Shown: positions 2,296 to 10,240 of the stretch, piece by piece
Layout: each line of letters begins with the position of its first letter
How positions within the stretch are numbered: the first letter of the stretch is position 1
DNA from: an uncultured Prevotellaceae bacterium
Lineage (GTDB): Bacteria; Bacteroidota; Bacteroidia; Bacteroidales; Bacteroidaceae
Reading direction: 5' to 3'
Assembly (NCBI GenBank): GCA_900318915.1
Contig: ONMI01000022.1
Span: forward strand, 1-46,127
DNA: 46,127 nucleotides
The notes under the pieces: generated by a model
Told to the model about the DNA's origin: nothing
What the model saw: only the letters and a program-made list of their open reading frames with translations
Database searches by the model: none
Translations under genes and position numbers: made by a program

Positions 2296-4581
2296 CTATT
2301 CGGTTTTGATATTCTTTACCGGATTCTCAGAAGCAGCGCGCCAGCTCTGGACGATAACGGTGAGCAGGGACAAGATGAAGCAGGTAAGCCCGGCGGCAAC
2401 GAATATCCATGGGCTGAGCGCGATGCGGTAACTGAAATTGCTGAGCCAGTCGCTCATGATGTGCCATGAGAGAGGCACGGCAATGACAAACGAGACAAGC
2501 ATAGGGATAGAGAAAGTGCGGAGCATCAACAGCAGCACTTCGCCCGATGTGGAGCCCATCACCTTGCGGATGGCTATCTCCTTCTTGCGCTGGCGGATGA
2601 AGAAGAGCGAGAGGCCCATATAGCCCATGACGGAGATGACGATGGCGATGAGGGTGAAGAGCGTCACGATGTGAAGCGTATTCTGATGCTCCTCAAAGGT
2701 CTCGGCGATATTCTCCTCCATACTGAGGGCATAATACTGCAGGACTTTTTCCGGAACACCTTGTTCATGGAGCATAGACCTGAAAGCATTCTGGGCTTGA
2801 CGGTCGCCATTCGTCTTCACCAGGTAATTGGGATTTTCCACTGTTTCCAATTTCCGTATTGCCATAGGCCGCACATCCTCCAGCACATTGATGATGCGGA
2901 AATCCTGCAGTATCCCGGCAATGAGTTCTTTGTCACCATCACCCCAGTCAAACTCCATTTTCAATCCCAAGAGGTCGAAGGCTTCTTTGTCCAAATCGGT
3001 TGACATCAGCATTTCGTAGTCGCCCTCGCTGTTCTTCACACCCCTTCCAGTGAAGTTATAGCCGGTGAAGGTGCTGCCCTGATAACAGCCGATACGCTCT
3101 ACGAAGGGCATCTTCTCCAACATATTTCTCACCGTCTGGCTCTTTCCTGCCGGACTTTCCACATAGAAAAGGTTCTCGGTATTGAAACCCAGCGGCGCAT
3201 GGATGAGGTGGTTGAGCTGCAGCCAGATAACGAGGGCCGCAGTGAGCATGGTGATGGTGACCACATTCTGCACAATAATAAACAGACGGCCCAGCACCAT
3301 CTTGGAATGGAAGCGGAACGAGCCCTTCACGATGTCGATGGGCTGATAGCTGGAGATATGCCATGAGGGCAGGATGCCCGAAACGAAGCCCAGAAACAGG
3401 ATAAAACCGAGGCAGAGGCTGACGCTGCCCACGTTGACATCGTTCTTCAGGCTGATTTTACCTCTGAACAGTTCAGAGGCGGCATCTTGGAAGTAGAATG
3501 CCAGAGCCAGCCCGACGGCAAAGCAGAATGCCACAATCAACGTTGACTCGACAATCAATTTCAGCGAAATCTCCGTCTGGCTGCTACCGAAGAGCCGCCG
3601 TGTGGCCATCTCTTTGGCACGGAAGCCGGTATTGGCTACAGTCAGGTTGATGTAGTTGCTGATGGCAAAGAAGAGGATGGCGAGCACGGCGGCCAACAGG
3701 ATGCGCAGCCGGGTCTTGTCGCCCTTCTGCATGCCGGCGCCGGTGTTCTGCGGCGCAAAAATGATGTCGGTGAGCGGTGTCATCACAGGTTTGCTGTCGC
3801 GCCAAACGCCATGGTGGTGCTCGTCGATGTATTTGGAGGCTATTTCCCTTGTGCCATCGACATGGGTGCCTGGCTTCATCAAGAAGAACGCCTTGGCTCC
3901 ACCCGTGCCTCCGCTGGCAAAGGATGTGTCATCCAGTTTATAACCCATCACTTGCGGATAGCGCTGCATGCTGACGATGATTTGTGTCTCATTGGGCAGC
4001 ACCGTGCGGTCCATATCCTTCATCACACCGCTGACGGTGTAGACCAGCGTGGTGTCGTAGGGGTCGGTATGGTTGATGTACACATGACGCTCGCCCACAA
4101 TCTGCAGCGGCTCACCGACAGCGTTTTTGCCGCCAAAGAGGCGATGGGCCAACCGCTCTGTGATGACGCACTTGTCGGGTGCGTCGAGGGCCGACCGGCG
4201 GTCACCCTCCACCAATGGGAAATCAAAGAGCTGGAAGAACGTCGAGTCGGCCAGCATGATGATGCCGTTCTCATCGTCGGCATCCTTCACCTCTTTGTCA
4301 CCATACTTGATACGGCCCCGCTGACTCATCACGCAGCAGGTCTGCTCCACGTCGGGGCACAGCCGCTTGATGCCCTCGGCCGCCTGTGGCCAAAGGAAGA
4401 AATTATTCTCCTCACCCATCAGGTAGATGCGGTCGGCATGCTTGTGCCACGAGTCTATGCTGTACTGCCGCCAGGTGTAGTCGCCTATGAGGATGATGAA
4501 CATGAACGACACCACCAGTCCGGCTATATTGACCAATGTATACAGCTTGTTGCGCGACAGGAATCTGAAAAAACTCTTCAT
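2296..4581 (-). CDS. FtsX/MacB-type ABC transporter permease (761 aa)
   Basis: Full-length permease with two FtsX cores. A membrane helix lies at residues ~15-35 (LVNIAGLVVSFMFIILIG), then a large extracytoplasmic domain to about 285. The first FtsX block has helices near SNYINLTVANTGFRAKEMATRRLFG. A further helix (MLTAALVIW) and a second soluble domain follow. The second FtsX block contains KKEIAIRKVMGSTSGE and three closing helices. The C-terminus reads WRAASENPVKNIKTE, a tail typical of this Bacteroidota family. It is the first gene after the operator-promoter at 4606-4701 and is followed within 7 bases by another permease. It probably forms an export or lipid/peptide-handling complex with the TolC- and HlyD-like proteins at 6.1-8.7 kb; no ABC ATPase gene is visible. 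Confidence 0.92.
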   Translation of the reverse strand: MKSFFRFLSRNKLYTLVNIAGLVVSFMFIILIGDYTWRQYSIDSWHKHADRIYLMGEENNFFLWPQAAEGIKRLCPDVEQTCCVMSQRGRIKYGDKEVKDADDENGIIMLADSTFFQLFDFPLVEGDRRSALDAPDKCVITERLAHRLFGGKNAVGEPLQIVGERHVYINHTDPYDTTLVYTVSGVMKDMDRTVLPNETQIIVSMQRYPQVMGYKLDDTSFASGGTGGAKAFFLMKPGTHVDGTREIASKYIDEHHHGVWRDSKPVMTPLTDIIFAPQNTGAGMQKGDKTRLRILLAAVLAILFFAISNYINLTVANTGFRAKEMATRRLFGSSQTEISLKLIVESTLIVAFCFAVGLALAFYFQDAASELFRGKISLKNDVNVGSVSLCLGFILFLGFVSGILPSWHISSYQPIDIVKGSFRFHSKMVLGRLFIIVQNVVTITMLTAALVIWLQLNHLIHAPLGFNTENLFYVESPAGKSQTVRNMLEKMPFVERIGCYQGSTFTGYNFTGRGVKNSEGDYEMLMSTDLDKEAFDLLGLKMEFDWGDGDKELIAGILQDFRIINVLEDVRPMAIRKLETVENPNYLVKTNGDRQAQNAFRSMLHEQGVPEKVLQYYALSMEENIAETFEEHQNTLHIVTLFTLIAIVISVMGYMGLSLFFIRQRKKEIAIRKVMGSTSGEVLLLMLRTFSIPMLVSFVIAVPLSWHIMSDWLSNFSYRIALSPWIFVAAGLTCFILSLLTVIVQSWRAASENPVKNIKTE

Positions 4582-4613: not shown

Positions 4614-4663
4614 CGCCATAAAAACATATCCGCCAGCGTTTTTAATGCCGGCGGATATGGATT

Positions 4664-4701
4664 GTCTAATAATTAGACTGCGGAGTGTATGATTCTTTGA
4701 C
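4664..4701 (-). promoter_or_regulatory. Double 15-bp operator upstream of the permease operon (site B)
   Basis: Two 15-bp sites lie here. At 4664-4678, GTCTAATAATTAGAC is a perfect 7-bp inverted repeat around one base. At 4687-4701, GTATGATTCTTTGAC is a weaker relative. Centres are 4671 and 4694, 23 bp apart. The same arrangement occurs at 8746-8783 in front of the TolC-like gene: 33 of 42 bases identical over 4660-4701, no gaps, second site identical. The inner centre is 58 bases from the -7 box here and 59 there. A 15-bp core beginning with G and ending with C with an AT-rich middle is the geometry bound by Fis-type HTH dimers, and the response regulator at 8807 ends in such an HTH. Binding by that regulator is inference. 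Confidence 0.72.
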
Positions 4702-4706
4702 AGATG

Positions 4707-5846
4707 TCATACCTGTTGTTTCAACCAGAGGGCAAAGAATCGGTCATAGACAAAATAGCCATCGGAATCACGATAAACAAGGTACTTTTCTGTAAGTACG
4801 GTTAGAGCAGTCTTTATGCTGCTGGCACTTGGAAGTTCATACTTTCTTATGAACTCACCTGCTTGCGGACTCTTCACGCGACCAGCCTTGGCAATGGCTT
4901 TCAACAAAGAAAATTGGTTGTCGGTCAAAAATAGCACGAGACCCTCGTATTGCATACTGTTTCTGTAAATAATATGCTGTATGGCATCCCTTACCTGACA
5001 CTCTTCACTTATGCTCTTGTCCTGTTCATACAATCTATTCAGTATCTGCTGGATGCTGGCTGTTATACCATCAAACTGCTTATAGATGACATGGAAGATT
5101 TCTTTTGACAGGTTTCCCTTCCTTGCCTCGAAAAAGTGGTTGGCAAAGTCGTAATATATTTCTTCGTGTAATGGACAAAGCCACATACCGACAGTACTTT
5201 GATAGAAAGGGCGGTCAGGTGAGTTGAATATTTGCGCCATCAGATGTTGCTTACTTCCGGAGAAGATGAAATGGACATTTGGAGCAAACTGTATGTATGA
5301 GCGCAATAAAGCCTCTGTTCCTCTTTCCGTATAATAAGTGATTTGTTGGAACTCATCGATGGCAATATATACTTGATGGCGACTTTGTTTAAGATAATCG
5401 AACAGGGCCTTTAGGGTCACCTCTGTCTGGGAAGCTTGAATACTGACCGACACAGTGGGCATTCCCGTTATCGGATCAATACTGAACAAGGGACGCCATG
5501 AACCGAAAAAATGAAGCAACTTGCGAAGAGCCTGCTTTTCGTAGGAAAAGACATATTGGGCCAAAGCCGTTGCAAACAACTGCACAAAGTCGTGTTGGTT
5601 TTTGGTGGGAAAAATGTCGATGTAGATGCAAATCACATCTTTCTCAGTCTTGCGAATGCGATAAAAGGCATTCTTGATGAGTCCAGTTTTGCCAATCCTA
5701 CGAGGTGATATGAGTGTCGTGTTACGCCCATTCCGGAGGTTGGAGATTAATTCTTCCGTTTCTTCTGTTCTATCGCAGAAATAGTCTGGTCCTGCATATT
5801 CTGCCAACACGAAGGGATTCTGAGGTTTCAATCTTTTTTTTGCCAT
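4707..5846 (-). CDS. AAA-family ATP-binding protein, lone and low GC (379 aa)
   Basis: P-loop ATPase of the archaeal-ATPase/STAND-like group (COG1672-like) frequent in Bacteroidota. Walker A is SPRRIGKTGLI (G52-K53-T54) and Walker B is VYIAIDEFQQI (D164-E165). A sensor-like FIFSGSKQHLM follows, and the C-terminal part resembles a winged helix (TDNQFSLLKAIAKAG to VLTEKYLVY). The biological role of such proteins is largely unknown. The gene separates the adaptor gene from the permease operon. Its stop codon lies 6 bases from the permease operator, its base composition is about 40% GC in sampled lines against about 60% in the adaptor gene, and it has its own promoter. These points suggest later insertion. 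It is not the ATPase subunit of the exporter: it lacks the LSGGQ signature and ABC architecture. Confidence 0.85.
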   Translation of the reverse strand: MAKKRLKPQNPFVLAEYAGPDYFCDRTEETEELISNLRNGRNTTLISPRRIGKTGLIKNAFYRIRKTEKDVICIYIDIFPTKNQHDFVQLFATALAQYVFSYEKQALRKLLHFFGSWRPLFSIDPITGMPTVSVSIQASQTEVTLKALFDYLKQSRHQVYIAIDEFQQITYYTERGTEALLRSYIQFAPNVHFIFSGSKQHLMAQIFNSPDRPFYQSTVGMWLCPLHEEIYYDFANHFFEARKGNLSKEIFHVIYKQFDGITASIQQILNRLYEQDKSISEECQVRDAIQHIIYRNSMQYEGLVLFLTDNQFSLLKAIAKAGRVKSPQAGEFIRKYELPSASSIKTALTVLTEKYLVYRDSDGYFVYDRFFALWLKQQV

Positions 5847-5875
5847 AACATCTACTTCATTGCATTATATTCTAC

Positions 5876-5931
5876 GGATTTTACGTCACGGGATTTACGT
5901 GACGGGATTTACGTGACGGGATTTACGTGAT
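5876..5931 (-). repeat. Four tandem copies of a 14-bp repeat in the ATPase leader
   Basis: On the plus strand the unit is GGGATTTACGTGAC at 5890-5903 and 5904-5917, with a one-mismatch copy at 5918-5931 (ends GAT) and a degenerate copy at 5876-5889 (GGATTTTACGTCAC). The array begins directly downstream of the minus-strand -7 box at 5933-5940, so it covers the probable transcription start and the 5' leader of the ATPase gene. Possible roles are an operator array for autoregulation or a slippage-prone region; neither is shown. Confidence 0.9.
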
Positions 5932-5932
5932 G

Positions 5933-5964
5933 CAAAGATACGATAAAATGTTGGTCATTACAAA
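5933..5964 (-). promoter_or_regulatory. Promoter of the AAA ATPase gene
   Basis: On the minus strand TTTG (5964-5961), 20 bases, then TATCTTTG (5940-5933), a full match to the Bacteroidota TTTG-N19-21-TAnnTTTG promoter. It gives the ATPase a promoter independent of the adaptor gene upstream. Confidence 0.8.
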
Positions 5965-6010
5965 CAATTTGGGCGGAATCTGCATTTTTTGGACAGATTT
6001 CGGCCTTATT

Positions 6011-6058
6011 CTATTCTGTCTTGATATTCTTTACCGGATTCTCAGAAGCAGCGCGCCA
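6011..6058 (-). pseudogene. Remnant of a permease 3' end (16 codons)
   Basis: The minus strand reads WRAASENPVKNIKTE and a TAG stop, the same 15-residue C-terminus as the permease ending at 2296. Over 48 bases only two positions differ, and similarity stops abruptly at the Trp codon on one side and just past the stop on the other. No other permease sequence surrounds it. It most likely records a third, paralogous permease that stood behind the adaptor gene and was lost, perhaps when the ATPase gene came in. Confidence 0.8.
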
Positions 6059-6079
6059 ACTTTTCATTAAAAATATTGC

Positions 6080-7333
6080 CTACTTAATCACCAATACCTC
6101 ATTGTCCTTAAATGCCTCGTAACCGCTGGTGACGACCCGCTCGCCGGGTTCCAGACCCTCGAGCACTTCATAATACTGCGGATTCTGGCGGCCTATGCGG
6201 ATGTTGCGGCGGTAGGCCTTGCCGCCGTTTTTGTCGAGCACGAAAATCCACTGGCCGCCCGTGGTCTGAAAGAAGGTGCCGCGGGGGATGAGGACGGCCT
6301 GCTCGGGCTGGCCCAGCTCGAGGTCGATATAGTAGGTCTGGCCGGTTCGTATGTTCTCCGGCCGCTCACCGCGGAAGACGAAATCGCAGCGGAACTTACC
6401 CTCGCGCACTTCCGGATAGACTTTGCGCACCTGCAGCCGGTATTGTTTGTCGCCTCGCGAAAAGGTGGCCGTCAGTCCCTGGCGCACGCGGTCGATATAG
6501 TGCTCGTCGATCTGTGCCTGCACCTTGTAGTCAGAGAGGTCATTGATTTGCCCTATCATCTGTCCGGGCTGTATGCTCTGCCCCAGTTCCACGTCGAGCA
6601 GTCCGAGTTCGCCTGTGGCGGTGGCCCTCACCTCGAGCTTGCTCTTGCGCTGCCTCACCAGCATCACGTTCCGCCGCATGTTCTGCAGATTGTCCTCCAT
6701 CTGATTCATCTGTACAGTCCGGTAGAGGCTGTCCTGTATCAACCGGCGGCCCACCAGCGTGCACTTTTTGGCCGACAGCTGATAGTCCTCCTGCGACTGC
6801 ACGTAATCTTCACGGTTGATCAGTTTTGCCTCATAGAGACGTTTGTTCTGATCGAAGGTGCGTTGTTTGCGGTGGGTGTCCATTTCCAGTTGCGCCTGCT
6901 CGGTCAGGTTGTTGAGCCGGTCTTGCTGCATGGCCACCTGCGTATTGCGCAGCAGGTTCTGCTTCTCCGCCAGTTCCGACTCTGCATTCAGAATTTGCAA
7001 GTCGAGGTTGGAGTTGTTCAGGCGCACGATGACATCGCCCTGACGCACCATTGTGCCCTCCTCTACGACCTTCTCCACCACGATGCCGCCCTCCTCGGGC
7101 GATATCTGCACCACTTGGATGGGCAGCACCTGACCATTGGTGCGCACATAGTCTTTGAACTCCGCTTTTGTAACCTCGCTCACCGTCAGTTCGTCGGCAC
7201 TGACTTTCAGCGTGGCGGCGTGATTGCCCAGCACGAGCCAGCCGATGAACAGCATCAGCAAGCCACCACCCGCCATGTATGGCCAATATTTCGCCACCCG
7301 CTGGGCCTTGGTTTTCTCTATTACTCTGTCCAT
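6080..7333 (-). CDS. HlyD/MacA-like periplasmic adaptor subunit
   Basis: Membrane fusion protein linking an inner-membrane transporter to a TolC-like channel. The start is taken at the ATG at 7333 (MDRVIEKTKAQR); an upstream ATG at 7393 lies deep inside the TolC-like gene. This gives 417 aa. One N-terminal membrane helix (YMAGGGLLMLFIGWLVL) is followed by a lipoyl/biotinyl half-motif (SPEEGGIVVEKVVEEGTMVRQGD), a long coiled-coil hairpin (~residues 100-220, Gln/Leu-rich), a second lipoyl half (ELGLLDVELGQSIQPGQMIGQI) and a beta-barrel domain ending EVLEGLEPGERVVTSGYEAF. It overlaps the 3' end of the TolC-like gene by 13 bases, so the two are translationally linked. Confidence 0.92.
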   Translation of the reverse strand: MDRVIEKTKAQRVAKYWPYMAGGGLLMLFIGWLVLGNHAATLKVSADELTVSEVTKAEFKDYVRTNGQVLPIQVVQISPEEGGIVVEKVVEEGTMVRQGDVIVRLNNSNLDLQILNAESELAEKQNLLRNTQVAMQQDRLNNLTEQAQLEMDTHRKQRTFDQNKRLYEAKLINREDYVQSQEDYQLSAKKCTLVGRRLIQDSLYRTVQMNQMEDNLQNMRRNVMLVRQRKSKLEVRATATGELGLLDVELGQSIQPGQMIGQINDLSDYKVQAQIDEHYIDRVRQGLTATFSRGDKQYRLQVRKVYPEVREGKFRCDFVFRGERPENIRTGQTYYIDLELGQPEQAVLIPRGTFFQTTGGQWIFVLDKNGGKAYRRNIRIGRQNPQYYEVLEGLEPGERVVTSGYEAFKDNEVLVIK

Positions 7334-8661
7334 ATCGCTATTCCCTGATAATATCTCACCAATTGCTCCTTGACCATGGCCATAAGGCGGCACTGCAGCA
7401 GCAAAGCCTTCGAATGCAGCAGTTGTGCCGAAGTGGTGCGCAGGTCGATAGCGGTGCTCAGACCTTCCTCATACTGATGGGCAGTCAGACGGTAGGCCAG
7501 GCTGTCGGCCTCCACTTTCTTTTCCATCTGCGCCGCCTGCTTCAGATACCCCTGCCAGTCGAGCCATGCCTCGCGGCTGAGTTTTTCCAGTTCGGTCTGT
7601 TTCTGCTCATATGCCTCGCAGGCCATCCGGTAATTGTTCTTCGCCCTACGTATGTTTCCCAATGTCTGCAGGCGGTTGAAGAGGGGTATGCTTAGCGTGA
7701 CTCCCACATACTCTCCCATGTTGCCGCTGAACTGTTTTCCAAAGGAAGGGACCATTTGTGTGTGTAAGGTTTTGTAGTAAGTGGTGCTCAGGCCCGCACT
7801 AAGTGAGAGTATAGGGAAAAGGGAGGCACGGGCCTGGCCCCACTCATGTTTGGAGGTTTCTACCTGATATTGCGCCTGCTGCAAGGCTGGATGTAAAGGA
7901 GAGCACAAGGGCTGCATGGCAAGCTGTCGGTGAGGATCTGAAATCTCCATCTGACAAGATGCGGGCTTGACACCATCCGCCGGCACAACGACAGCGAGGC
8001 TGTCGGCCAACGGATATGCCATCTCCTTTTTAAGTTCCAACAAGGCGGTGGCAAGGAGATTTTGCTGGCGGGTCAGCTCATAGTCGGCCTCTGCCTGTTG
8101 CGACTCCACCAATGCCACGTCGGCGGTGCTCTTGCGCCCCACTTCTTCCAGCAGACGGGTTTGCCGCAGCAGCAGTACTGTTTCCTGCAGTTTTTCCCGG
8201 GCCATACGGACCATGCCCACACCATACGCCACATCGACGTAGGCCTGCAGCACACTGAGCGCCGTCTGGTCCTGCTGCAGCCTCAGTGCCTGGTGCCCCA
8301 TCAGCACACTGGCCTTGGCGGCCTTCAGGGCATGCAGGCGGCTGAAACCGTCGAACAGCGGAAACGATGCCTGGATGGAATAGCCATTGTAGAAGGTGCT
8401 TACATCGGTATAGCCATTGGTCTCGGGGTCAATCGCCCTTCCGAAGTTGTACTGCGCTCCGACATTGGCGTCTACGGCAGGGAGGAAGCGTCCGGCGGCA
8501 CTGGTTCTGCCCGCCTTATAGTTGTCGAGTTCCAATTTCGCCAGCTTCACCTCGTGGTTGTGCTCCACGGCATACTGCATGCACTGCATGAGCGTCCAGC
8601 CCGGTTGGGCCTCCGTCTGCGCAGCAGAAAATGCCAAGATGACACAGATGATTGTTCTCAT
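7321..8661 (-). CDS. TolC-like outer-membrane efflux protein
   Basis: Outer-membrane channel of the exporter. The start is set at the ATG at 8661, giving 446 aa with a signal peptide (MRTIICVILAFSAAQTEAQ). The ATG at 8706 would place the -7 box inside the coding region and is rejected. Mature sequence starts WTLMQCMQYAVEHNHEVKLA, the usual first helix of the OEP family. Two OEP repeats follow, the first around residues 20-210 and the second around 240-440, with long Ala/Gln/Leu-rich helices. VDANVGAQYNFG and LSLSAGLSTTYY are the strand-forming parts typical of the family. It is first in the operon TolC-HlyD, under the shared operator at 8746-8783. Confidence 0.93.
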   Translation of the reverse strand: MRTIICVILAFSAAQTEAQPGWTLMQCMQYAVEHNHEVKLAKLELDNYKAGRTSAAGRFLPAVDANVGAQYNFGRAIDPETNGYTDVSTFYNGYSIQASFPLFDGFSRLHALKAAKASVLMGHQALRLQQDQTALSVLQAYVDVAYGVGMVRMAREKLQETVLLLRQTRLLEEVGRKSTADVALVESQQAEADYELTRQQNLLATALLELKKEMAYPLADSLAVVVPADGVKPASCQMEISDPHRQLAMQPLCSPLHPALQQAQYQVETSKHEWGQARASLFPILSLSAGLSTTYYKTLHTQMVPSFGKQFSGNMGEYVGVTLSIPLFNRLQTLGNIRRAKNNYRMACEAYEQKQTELEKLSREAWLDWQGYLKQAAQMEKKVEADSLAYRLTAHQYEEGLSTAIDLRTTSAQLLHSKALLLQCRLMAMVKEQLVRYYQGIAIWTE

Positions 8662-8686
8662 ACCCTTTTCCTTTTTTTGCACACTG

Positions 8687-8694
8687 CAAAGGTA
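8687..8694 (-). promoter_or_regulatory. -7 promoter box of the TolC-HlyD operon
   Basis: TACCTTTG on the minus strand, matching TAnnTTTG, 25 bases before the ATG at 8661. As at the permease promoter there is no TTTG at the -33 distance, in keeping with activation from the operator upstream. Confidence 0.72.
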
Positions 8695-8745
8695 CGGCAC
8701 TTCCATGGTGTAAGCACGCTTTTCCGGTCGGGCAGAGAGCTGATT

Positions 8746-8783
8746 GTCTAAAAATTATACACCCCGACGTATGATTCTTTGAC
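8746..8783 (-). promoter_or_regulatory. Double 15-bp operator between tolC-like and response-regulator genes (site A)
   Basis: Two 15-bp sites: GTCTAAAAATTATAC at 8746-8760 (five of seven arm pairs match) and GTATGATTCTTTGAC at 8769-8783, centres 23 bp apart. The outer site is identical to the one at 4687-4701. Orientation and distance to the -7 box of the leftward operon are the same in both places. Because the response-regulator gene begins at 8807 on the other strand, the regulator could also control itself from here. Confidence 0.72.
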
Positions 8784-8806
8784 GGTTTATTCGTACCTTA
8801 GCCGCC

Positions 8807-9334
8807 ATGAAAAAGTATGGAACCATATTGATAGCCGATGACAACAGTGCTGTGCTCACGGCTATGCGCTATCTGCTCGACTCCACATTTGATCAGATCT
8901 TGACCACACCACAGCCCGACGACATACTGAAGATGATGACCCAGCAGCCCGTCGACATGGTATTGCTCGACATGAACTTCACACTCGGTGTGAACAATGG
9001 CAACGAGGGACTGTTCTGGCTGCGCACCATCCACAAGCACCATCCCCAGACTCCCGTGGTGCTGCTGACCGCCTACGCAGACGTCGGTCTGGCCGTGAAA
9101 GGACTGAAAAGCGGTGCTTCCGACTTCATCACCAAGCCGTGGAACAATGATGAGCTGGTGCGCAAACTGAAAGACGTGCTCGACATGCAGAGCGAGATTG
9201 TCACCCTCGATGAGATGGAAGCGCAGCATATACGCCGTGCCATCGACCAATGCCACGGCAACTTGAGCCGAACCGCAGAGATGCTAGGCATCACCAGGCA
9301 GACGCTCTACAACAAGATGAAACGGTTGGATTAG
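8807..9334 (+). CDS. Response regulator, REC plus Fis-type HTH (175 aa)
   Basis: Receiver domain at residues 4-120 with the acidic pair D11-D12, phosphoacceptor D55 (VLLDM), T88 and K110 (ITKPW). The C-terminal ~40 residues (AIDQCHGNLSRTAEMLGITRQTLYNKMKRL) are a Fis-family helix-turn-helix as in NtrC. The central sigma54-activating AAA+ domain of NtrC is absent, so it should work with ordinary promoters, as PrrA/RegA/ActR-type regulators do. It is followed after 24 bases by its histidine kinase and divergently adjoins the TolC-HlyD operon. A TACCTTAG at 8794-8801, only 5 bases before the ATG, might be its -7 box; transcripts would then have almost no leader. Confidence 0.93.
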   Translation: MKKYGTILIADDNSAVLTAMRYLLDSTFDQILTTPQPDDILKMMTQQPVDMVLLDMNFTLGVNNGNEGLFWLRTIHKHHPQTPVVLLTAYADVGLAVKGLKSGASDFITKPWNNDELVRKLKDVLDMQSEIVTLDEMEAQHIRRAIDQCHGNLSRTAEMLGITRQTLYNKMKRLD

Positions 9335-9358
9335 TAATTCCATAAAGAAGTGAGAGAA

Positions 9359-10240
9359 ATGATCTGGTTATTGGTTTTTGTCGTTATAGGCATCTTATTT
9401 GTATTTTGGGAAGTGCGCAGGCAACGTTCGCTCAAACTTCGTGCACATCTGATGCAAGAGGCCATCCGCAATCACGATTTCACATTCCGCCTTCCTGTAG
9501 ACGGTCTCCTGCCCGGGGAACGGGCCATGCAGCAAGCACTGAACAAGCTGGGAGAAACCATCCACCAACAAATGAGCCTGAATGAGGTGGAGTCATGGGA
9601 ACGACTCACGCGGGTGCTGACCCATGAGATGATGAACGCCACGGCCCCCATCACCAGCATCAGTCAGTCACTGCTCGGCCGTGACGATGTGAAAGGCACA
9701 CCTCTCGAATCCGGCATTCAGGCTATCTTCGACACCAGCCGCCATCTGAACAACTTCGTGGTGAACTACCGCAAAATGTCGGAGCTGGAGAAACCTGTGC
9801 TGGCCGACGTACCACTCCGCCCCTTGCTCAATGATGTCTGTAGCGCCTATCCTGGACTTCATTGGGAGGTCAATGTCTCCGCGGGCATGAAGGTGCGTGC
9901 CGATGCCGGCATGTTGCGGCAAGTGCTGATGAACCTGGCAAAGAATGCGGTGGAGGCTCAGGCCAAGAGAATGGTGATACGACAGACAGAGGAGCCGGCA
10001 AACAATCAGCAGTTGAAGCTCTACATAGGCAATGACGGCCTGCCCATCCCCGCAGAGAACCGCCAGTCGCTCTTTGTTCCATTCTTCACCACAAAGCGGG
10101 GTGGAAGCGGCATCGGCCTTTCTCTAAGCCGCCGTATGATGATACAGCAAGGCGGCATGCTCGAACTGGCCGAAAAACAACAGCCTGCATGCCGGGCTGG
10201 TTTCAACCTCACCATCCTGATTCCACGACAAAAACAATAG
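9359..10240 (+). CDS. Sensor histidine kinase, membrane-anchored
   Basis: Partner kinase of the preceding regulator. ATG at 9359 is preferred over the in-frame GTG at 9350, because AAAGAAGTGAGAGAA precedes it. The protein has 293 aa. One N-terminal membrane helix (MIWLLVFVVIGILFVFW) and no periplasmic sensor domain are seen. A HAMP-like linker follows. The phosphoacceptor is H89 (LTHEMMNATAPI). The ATPase domain has an N-box (QVLMNLAKNAVEA), GNDGLPI as G1 region, FVPFFTTK (F-box) and GGSGIGLSLSRRMM (G2). With no large sensing domain, the signal may be sensed in the membrane or through another protein. Confidence 0.92.
   Translation: MIWLLVFVVIGILFVFWEVRRQRSLKLRAHLMQEAIRNHDFTFRLPVDGLLPGERAMQQALNKLGETIHQQMSLNEVESWERLTRVLTHEMMNATAPITSISQSLLGRDDVKGTPLESGIQAIFDTSRHLNNFVVNYRKMSELEKPVLADVPLRPLLNDVCSAYPGLHWEVNVSAGMKVRADAGMLRQVLMNLAKNAVEAQAKRMVIRQTEEPANNQQLKLYIGNDGLPIPAENRQSLFVPFFTTKRGGSGIGLSLSRRMMIQQGGMLELAEKQQPACRAGFNLTILIPRQKQ

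Follow-up and report, generated by a model that had tools for sequence, protein, structure and literature searches.

The 46,127-nucleotide stretch analysed here (the window; contig ONMI01000022.1 of assembly GCA_900318915.1, from an uncultured Prevotellaceae bacterium) carries TolC/HlyD/MacB-type exporter genes and two copies of a paired 15-bp site, through which a small two-component regulator very probably turns on genes of the drug-exporter type in rumen bacteria. The regulator, encoded beside one of the pairs (8807–9334), joins a receiver domain (REC) to a Fis-type helix-turn-helix (HTH), and we consider it likely that the pairs are its operators, from which it would activate the exporter genes with the primary sigma factor, acting from a fixed 58-bp position. 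The spacing within the pair is constant to the base across many species. Comparison with relatives adds two elements to the earlier reading of this DNA: the operator code is common to full-length, sigma54-type REC-AAA+-Fis relatives, and the target promoters of relatives contain a degenerate −33 element. The likeliest history, as we read the sequences, is that the exporter promoters were re-wired from sigma54 to the primary sigma factor, with the operator kept, and that the regulator lost its AAA+ domain.

Self-comparison of the window confirmed the similarity from which the earlier note had started: segments 4660–4701 and 8742–8783 are identical at 33 of 42 bases without gaps, a level reached on just 3 diagonals of the whole window and on none in 2 first-order Markov shuffles. 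Each segment indeed contains two 15-bp G...C sites with centres 23 bp apart. In the first pair, centred on 4671 and 4694, the promoter-proximal site (4664–4678) is the core GTCTAATAATTAGAC, whose 7-bp arms form a perfect inverted repeat about a central A, and the distal site (4687–4701) reads GTATGATTCTTTGAC on the plus strand; the pair lies 82 bp before a MacB-type permease gene. In the second, centred on 8753 and 8776, the export-proximal site (8746–8760) reads GTCTAAAAATTATAC and the regulator-proximal site (8769–8783) again GTATGATTCTTTGAC, both on the plus strand, and the pair is located between a tolC-type gene on the minus strand and the REC-Fis response regulator gene on the plus strand. 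The description of both as divergent-cluster promoters thus holds for 8746–8783, in a divergent intergenic region, and fails for 4664–4701, which has a minus-strand gene on either side. On the export side, the distance from the inner centre to the −7 box is, as had been claimed, 58 bases for TATCTTTG (4613–4606, minus strand; permease gene) and 59 for TACCTTTG (8694–8687, minus strand; tolC-type operon). The −7-like box of the regulator gene, TACCTTAG (8794–8801, plus strand), is 18 bases from the nearest site centre, 17/18 being the commonest offset in relatives. A profile made from 55 pairs, both window copies included, matches just these two complete copies in the entire assembly of 3,378,486 bases (E 6.6e-9, and 1.8e-6 for 4664–4701); the third-best match is a half site with E 5.5.

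Conservation of the paired sites upstream of orthologous operons, on which the earlier note had staked its proposal beforehand, was checked in related genomes, from which all counts below derive (L and G labels denote the loci and genomes compared), and the sites are kept. Across 41 loci (709,528 bases), pairs scoring 15–16 of the 16 consensus letters occur 46 times at spacing 23 and never at any other spacing from 16 to 33; with at least 13 letters there are 61 pairs at spacing 23 and 1 to 26 at the other spacings (26 at spacing 25), compared with 2.8 pairs per set in Markov shuffles at spacing 23, where at least 15 letters are never reached. A pair spaced by 23 bp precedes the short REC-Fis gene in all 80 named loci, with an export-side TAnnTTTG box at 58 in 73 and at 59 in 2. 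These are the best 80 loci from GTDB species genomes, mostly metagenome-assembled and many from ruminants, plus isolates including Xylanibacter ruminicola and Prevotella ruminicola, and part of them come from genomes already in the first locus set. A family-wide search placed the close lineage of short regulators in ten further genera, and all 15 loci taken from them (L232–L246, at least one per genus) have the pair, 13 by the standard scan (weakly in L243) and 2 in a variant form; in every one of them, one side has a −7 box at a distance of 58 or 59.

Operator and regulator also occur together. Orthologues of the 175-aa regulator were found in 102 of 398 same-genus genomes (E ≤ 1e-45); the orthologues at G375:C111 and G438:C78 have one stop inside each match. 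Regulator and operator are both present in 96 genomes, the regulator only in 6, the operator only in 12 and neither in 284, so that the operator accompanies 96 of 102 regulator genomes versus 12 of the 296 others (Fisher p 2e-70). The profile was drawn partly from these 398 genomes; among the 62 regulator genomes that contributed nothing to it, 59 match.

The geometry of the promoters bears on what the pairs might do. According to parts of PMC7366714, the sigma-ABfr consensus consists of a −7 TAnnTTTG and a −33 TTTG; the −7 element is present, and the export promoters are, judged by their sequence, of the sigma-ABfr type with a weak −33. The absence of a −33 TTTG noted earlier is correct for the two window promoters and does not extend to the promoter family: 55 aligned promoters from the loci compared retain a degenerate −33 element, in most cases (C/A)TTG, that lies some 23 bases ahead of the TA. 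Both window promoters are degenerate at this position; that of the permease gene (4633–4637, minus strand) reads GCTGG, relatives having mostly CTTGG or CATTG. Among 58 promoters with a box at 57–59, the box is at 58 in 55, at 57 in two and at 59 in one; the alignment comprises only such pairs, 3 duplicates having been dropped in a later step. Counted from the proximal centre, positions +28 to +31 are A-rich, a −33-like (C/A)TTG(G) follows at about +34 to +38, and then TAnnTTTGCA at 58. AATC-GC-T, adjoining the proximal site at +8 to +16, is conserved as well in these 55 promoters. Between operator and −7 box of the window permease promoter, and spanning the −33 position, lies a perfect 10-bp inverted repeat (4625–4659, CATATCCGCC...GGCGGATATG), possibly a site for a second regulator; GGCGGA occurs at this type of location in 10 of the 58 promoters, 7 of these 10 also having the TCCGCC left arm.

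We propose that two REC-Fis dimers would sit side by side, one per 15-bp site, and that, with the proximal centre 58 bp before TAnnTTTG, they would activate the sigma-ABfr polymerase at weak −33 promoters in a class I-like manner. The rigid 58-bp distance, upstream of the −33 position, fits activation through contact with polymerase. The same pair would also touch the regulator's own promoter. In 99 regulator-side regions with a nearby pair (identical regions merged, TAnnTTAG accepted, 6 loci without a nearby pair left out), the box is 17/18 bp from the nearest site centre in 61 and missing in 9, and lies at 46–51, 58, 69–70, 78–80 or 89–91 in the other 29; these distances, all above 40 bp, are phased at 10.5–11 bp, in the phase of 58 (R 0.80 and 0.79, n = 29). 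The 17/18-bp offset, found in most species, suggests competition with polymerase by overlap, that is, autorepression, and the longer, helically phased offsets of other species fit autoactivation. The position seen in those 61 regions, which should block polymerase, speaks for an alternative, the REC-Fis protein binding the pairs to repress the exporters and phosphorylation relieving or strengthening that repression. We consider this unlikely: a repressor has no need of an export-side pair held upstream of −33 at a rigid 58 bp, or of other distances kept in helical phase, and the full-length relatives that carry these sites belong to the sigma54 type of activator.

That the neighbouring REC-Fis protein is the binder had been proposed from the Fis-like appearance of the sites, and closer inspection agrees with this. 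Parts of PMC4784862 give the rules for E. coli Fis sites as G at ±7, T at −8, a pyrimidine–purine (Y–R) step and an A/T centre. In the 55 aligned pairs, G at −7 and C at +7 are invariant in both sites, T at −8 precedes the two sites in 91% and 93%, the centre is A/T rich and T–R at −4/−3 is common. Each site would thus be read in the manner of E. coli Fis, with G at ±7, T at −8, the Y–R step near ±3–4 and an A/T centre; the Fis core site likewise has its step at ±(3–4) or ±(4–5), whereas the window sites differ from it in being two in fixed tandem and tied to a two-component regulator. The arginine of the regulator's recognition helix presumably occupies the position of Fis Arg85, which touches the ±7 guanine. 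Differences in this helix are matched by differences in the operator. In L095 the helix is SRQRLYKK (TRQTLYNK and similar in others) and the half-sites start with GTATT instead of GTCTA/GTATG. L240 and L241 appeared pairless by the standard scan, yet have the same SRQRLYKK helix, and when the variant operator was looked for, both loci proved to carry it (scores 18 and 20 of 20, spacing 23, box at 58; one of the two sites in L240 has only half of the variant form), with 1 match scoring at least 17 in 51 other loci as the control. The base at which the operator is altered is the same for all three regulators. Moreover, G occupies position 5 in 41 of 44 half-sites for helices, SRQR aside, in which the Tyr is not followed by Asn, compared with 141 of 560 for TRQTLYNK and 4 of 16 for SRQTLYNK helices, counts that carry the caveat of shared ancestry and leave out L207, with no unique helix, and pairs scoring below 14. 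Together, co-occurrence in the 398 genomes, the Fis-type site rules and the covariation of helix and operator point to the REC-Fis protein as the probable binder.

Full-length REC-AAA+-Fis relatives adjoin the same exporter genes in other genomes; PF00158 is present in relatives L218 and L266. We compared 23 such genomes, 19 with wide flanks (L103, L217–L228, L266–L271) and 4 with 1.5-kb flanks (L028, L032, L033, L034). Paired sites of the same code occur at spacing 21 or 22 in 12 of the 23 (L217 and L228 recognised by eye, the other 10 by scan, with L219 and L220 almost identical to each other), and no pair reaches the threshold in 10. In each of the 13 full-length loci where a pair occurs, a box of the TGGCA, TGGTA or TAGCA type lies 62–65 bp from the proximal centre in one direction, and most have a recognisable −24/−12 element such as TGGCACGGTCTTGGCA; a −24-like word was met at 62–65 from 113 of 9500 random positions. 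Sigma54 control of FtsX-type ABC permeases in Bacteroidia has been predicted previously, according to parts of PMC12316311. One pair of a full-length regulator, L269:4350–4386, is flanked by both kinds of box: towards tolC a −24-like one at 62, and towards the regulator gene TAnnTTTG at 57, so the promoter classes are not pure.

Given that the full-length relatives use nearly the same 15-bp site, and that both kinds of regulator are encoded in one locus in L087 and L089–L091, the short regulator could be a bystander and the binder of the pairs some other protein, such as a full-length REC-AAA+-Fis encoded elsewhere. This seems quite improbable to us. Pairs at full-length loci are accompanied by −24 boxes and have spacing 21–22 in 12 of 13 cases, whereas those at short loci are accompanied by −7 boxes and have spacing 23; the short regulator was the only one to reach E 1e-25 in the genome of the window; and the operator changes follow the helix of the short regulator. 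In L087, L089, L090 and L091, the full-length gene follows, on the same strand, the exporter genes behind the short regulator's operator, an arrangement that is possibly a regulatory cascade. Finally, MacB-type genes and their promoters have clearly been duplicated in relatives, but it is hardly credible that the repeat reflects recent duplication of two promoters with functionless sites, because many columns between operator and −7 box are unconserved in the aligned promoters whereas the site columns are near-invariant, and because spacing 23 is retained in ten further genera.

A tree rooted with AtoC, NtrC and ZraR of E. coli K-12 resolves two short lineages, the close one with 28 tips and a second with 19, as clades with support 100 each. 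Both are nested within a set of 27 full-length proteins; backbone supports range from 28 to 100. One member of the second lineage, L261 (262 aa), can be aligned in part, between its two domains, with the end of the AAA+ lid region (about 28–36% identity including the HTH, best E 1.5e-18), although Pfam detects no AAA+ domain in it. The nesting of the short lineages and this remnant suggest loss of the AAA+ domain, and the best reading of the sequences is that the short regulators arose in this way, perhaps twice. Specifically, we lean towards a scenario in which sigma54 enhancer-binding regulators of ABC exporters lost the AAA+ domain, in two separate short lineages, one of which includes the member with the lid piece, and became two-domain activators working with the primary sigma factor. 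The promoters of the multi-operon exporter cluster would have been re-wired in step from the −24/−12 to the −7 type, with the operator code kept, the pair spacing changing from mostly 21–22 to 23 bp and the offset from 62–65 to 58 bp. Loss of sigma54 itself was rejected as the cause of the change, since a Sigma54_DBD match is present in 380 of the 398 same-genus genomes and in 174 of the 175 better ones.

Many regulators of the second lineage (L247–L265, 185–262 aa) are encoded beside MacB/ABC genes. The pair is absent from all 19 of these loci at the threshold used; single Fis-type sites were seen by eye upstream of the regulator in L247, L257, L258, L259, L262 and L263. The 262-aa REC-Fis of L261 is encoded at L261:4444–5232, and the family search contains further open frames of 258–310 aa, several from the same genus.

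Several observations weigh against the explanation proposed here. The counts come from kindred genomes and are not independent. No box at 57–59 was found in 5 of the 80 named loci, and no pair lies near the regulator in L068, L071, L072, L094, L098 and L101, five of which have pairs elsewhere in the stretch and one of which, L094, has none. Six regulator genomes lack a profile match, and the pair of G024 was missed by the profile even in a smaller search, being found by the consensus scan (L075). Conversely, of the 12 genomes with operator and without regulator, 4 have weak matches (E 3e-4 to 6e-3) and 8 are 63–85% complete. The far-side T at −8 is weaker, with A after the site in only 60% of distal and 84% of proximal sites. 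The regulators of L095, L240 and L241 form one clade, so that their covariation may be a single event, and within the second clade of short regulators G stands in 14 of 24 half-sites even though the helix is TRQTLYNK. The weak −33 element kept in relatives makes basal transcription without the activator possible. L034, a full-length locus, has a weak pair at spacing 23, so that spacing alone does not part the two classes.

As to the targets, ten stretches outside the neighbourhood of the regulator gene contain 15 further operators with a box at 58, located in front of genes for MacB-type permeases or ABC ATPases or of DUF3836 genes; the stretches were chosen from profile matches, nine on other contigs and one (G297) more than 25 kb away on the regulator's contig, and the listing was limited to operators with a box at 57–59. 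In G163, G312, G392, G264, G384 and G055, assembled in at most 20 contigs each, all operators, at 1 to 3 places, lie on one contig within 15 kb. The 12 matches in G246, where places were counted on both strands, correspond to 6 places on 2 contigs, and G024 gives none by profile. A regulon scattered over the genome was rejected, as operators sit together in genomes with few contigs. Matches on other contigs can be explained by contig breaks; hence, we claim a cluster of several operons and nothing wider. The targets would be TolC/HlyD/MacB-type exporter genes, in two transcription units here and with up to at least six operators in relatives.

The closest known systems are the NtrC/AtoC-family REC-AAA+-Fis regulators encoded beside TolC/HlyD/MacB clusters in Bacteroidota, which the window regulator resembles in REC, Fis-type HTH, neighbouring kinase and exporter genes and tandem 15-bp sites. 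It differs from them in lacking AAA+ (PF00158), in a pair spacing of 23 rather than mostly 21–22, and in target promoters with TAnnTTTG at 58/59 rather than a −24/−12 element. ActR/PrrA/RegA of Proteobacteria, which are REC-Fis proteins without AAA+, share the two-domain layout and similar length. Membership in that group was rejected (NCBIfam NF033791, score 64.6 against a cut-off of 250), and the window regulator, unlike them, adjoins exporter genes; the tree contained no RegA-type sequence. Caulobacter NtrC is reportedly an enhancer-binding protein without GAFTGA, comparable in being a sigma54-type regulator that no longer activates through sigma54; it retains the AAA+ domain, whereas the window regulator is without one altogether. 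In searches of the open-access literature we recognised nothing describing this operator or the switch in promoter class.

How a sigma54 regulator becomes a primary-sigma activator with its targets retained is an open question in regulatory evolution. With both forms alive in close relatives, a readable operator code and a promoter geometry fixed to the base, the switch is testable here. Furthermore, the operator provides a searchable mark of the TolC/HlyD/MacB-type exporter gene set in rumen and gut Bacteroidota, and its offset a position rule for activators working with sigma-ABfr.

The predicted target genes all lie on the minus strand: the MacB-type permease (2296–4581; MacB_PCD PF12704 and FtsX PF02687), a periplasmic adaptor of the HlyD/RND-MFP type (6080–7333; PF13437, PF16576, TIGR01730; ATG start, with an alternative GTG start at 7393) and a TolC-type outer membrane factor (7321–8706; PF02321). 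On the plus strand, the 175-aa regulator (8807–9334) has the composition given earlier, REC (PF00072) plus Fis-type HTH (PF02954), with no PF00158 match within its 175 residues; receiver residues D11, D12, D55, T88 and K110 are invariant in 12 aligned regulators, and its activity may be under phosphorylation control. It is followed by a histidine kinase gene (9350–10240, plus strand; ATG at 9359) with a short N-terminal stretch, in which a Pfam scan gives HATPase_c and no other domain. No ABC ATPase was found among the window cluster genes scanned, in an assembly that is 85% complete. An ATPase_2/AAA_14-type gene (4707–5846) lies between the adaptor and permease genes and is also present in L064 and L099. 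A second copy of the MacB-type gene's 3′ end follows the adaptor gene (5998–6040 versus 2283–2325, 40 of 42 bases identical); where the window has this repeat, L064 has a further MacB-type gene, and the repeat looks like the remnant of a deleted permease gene.

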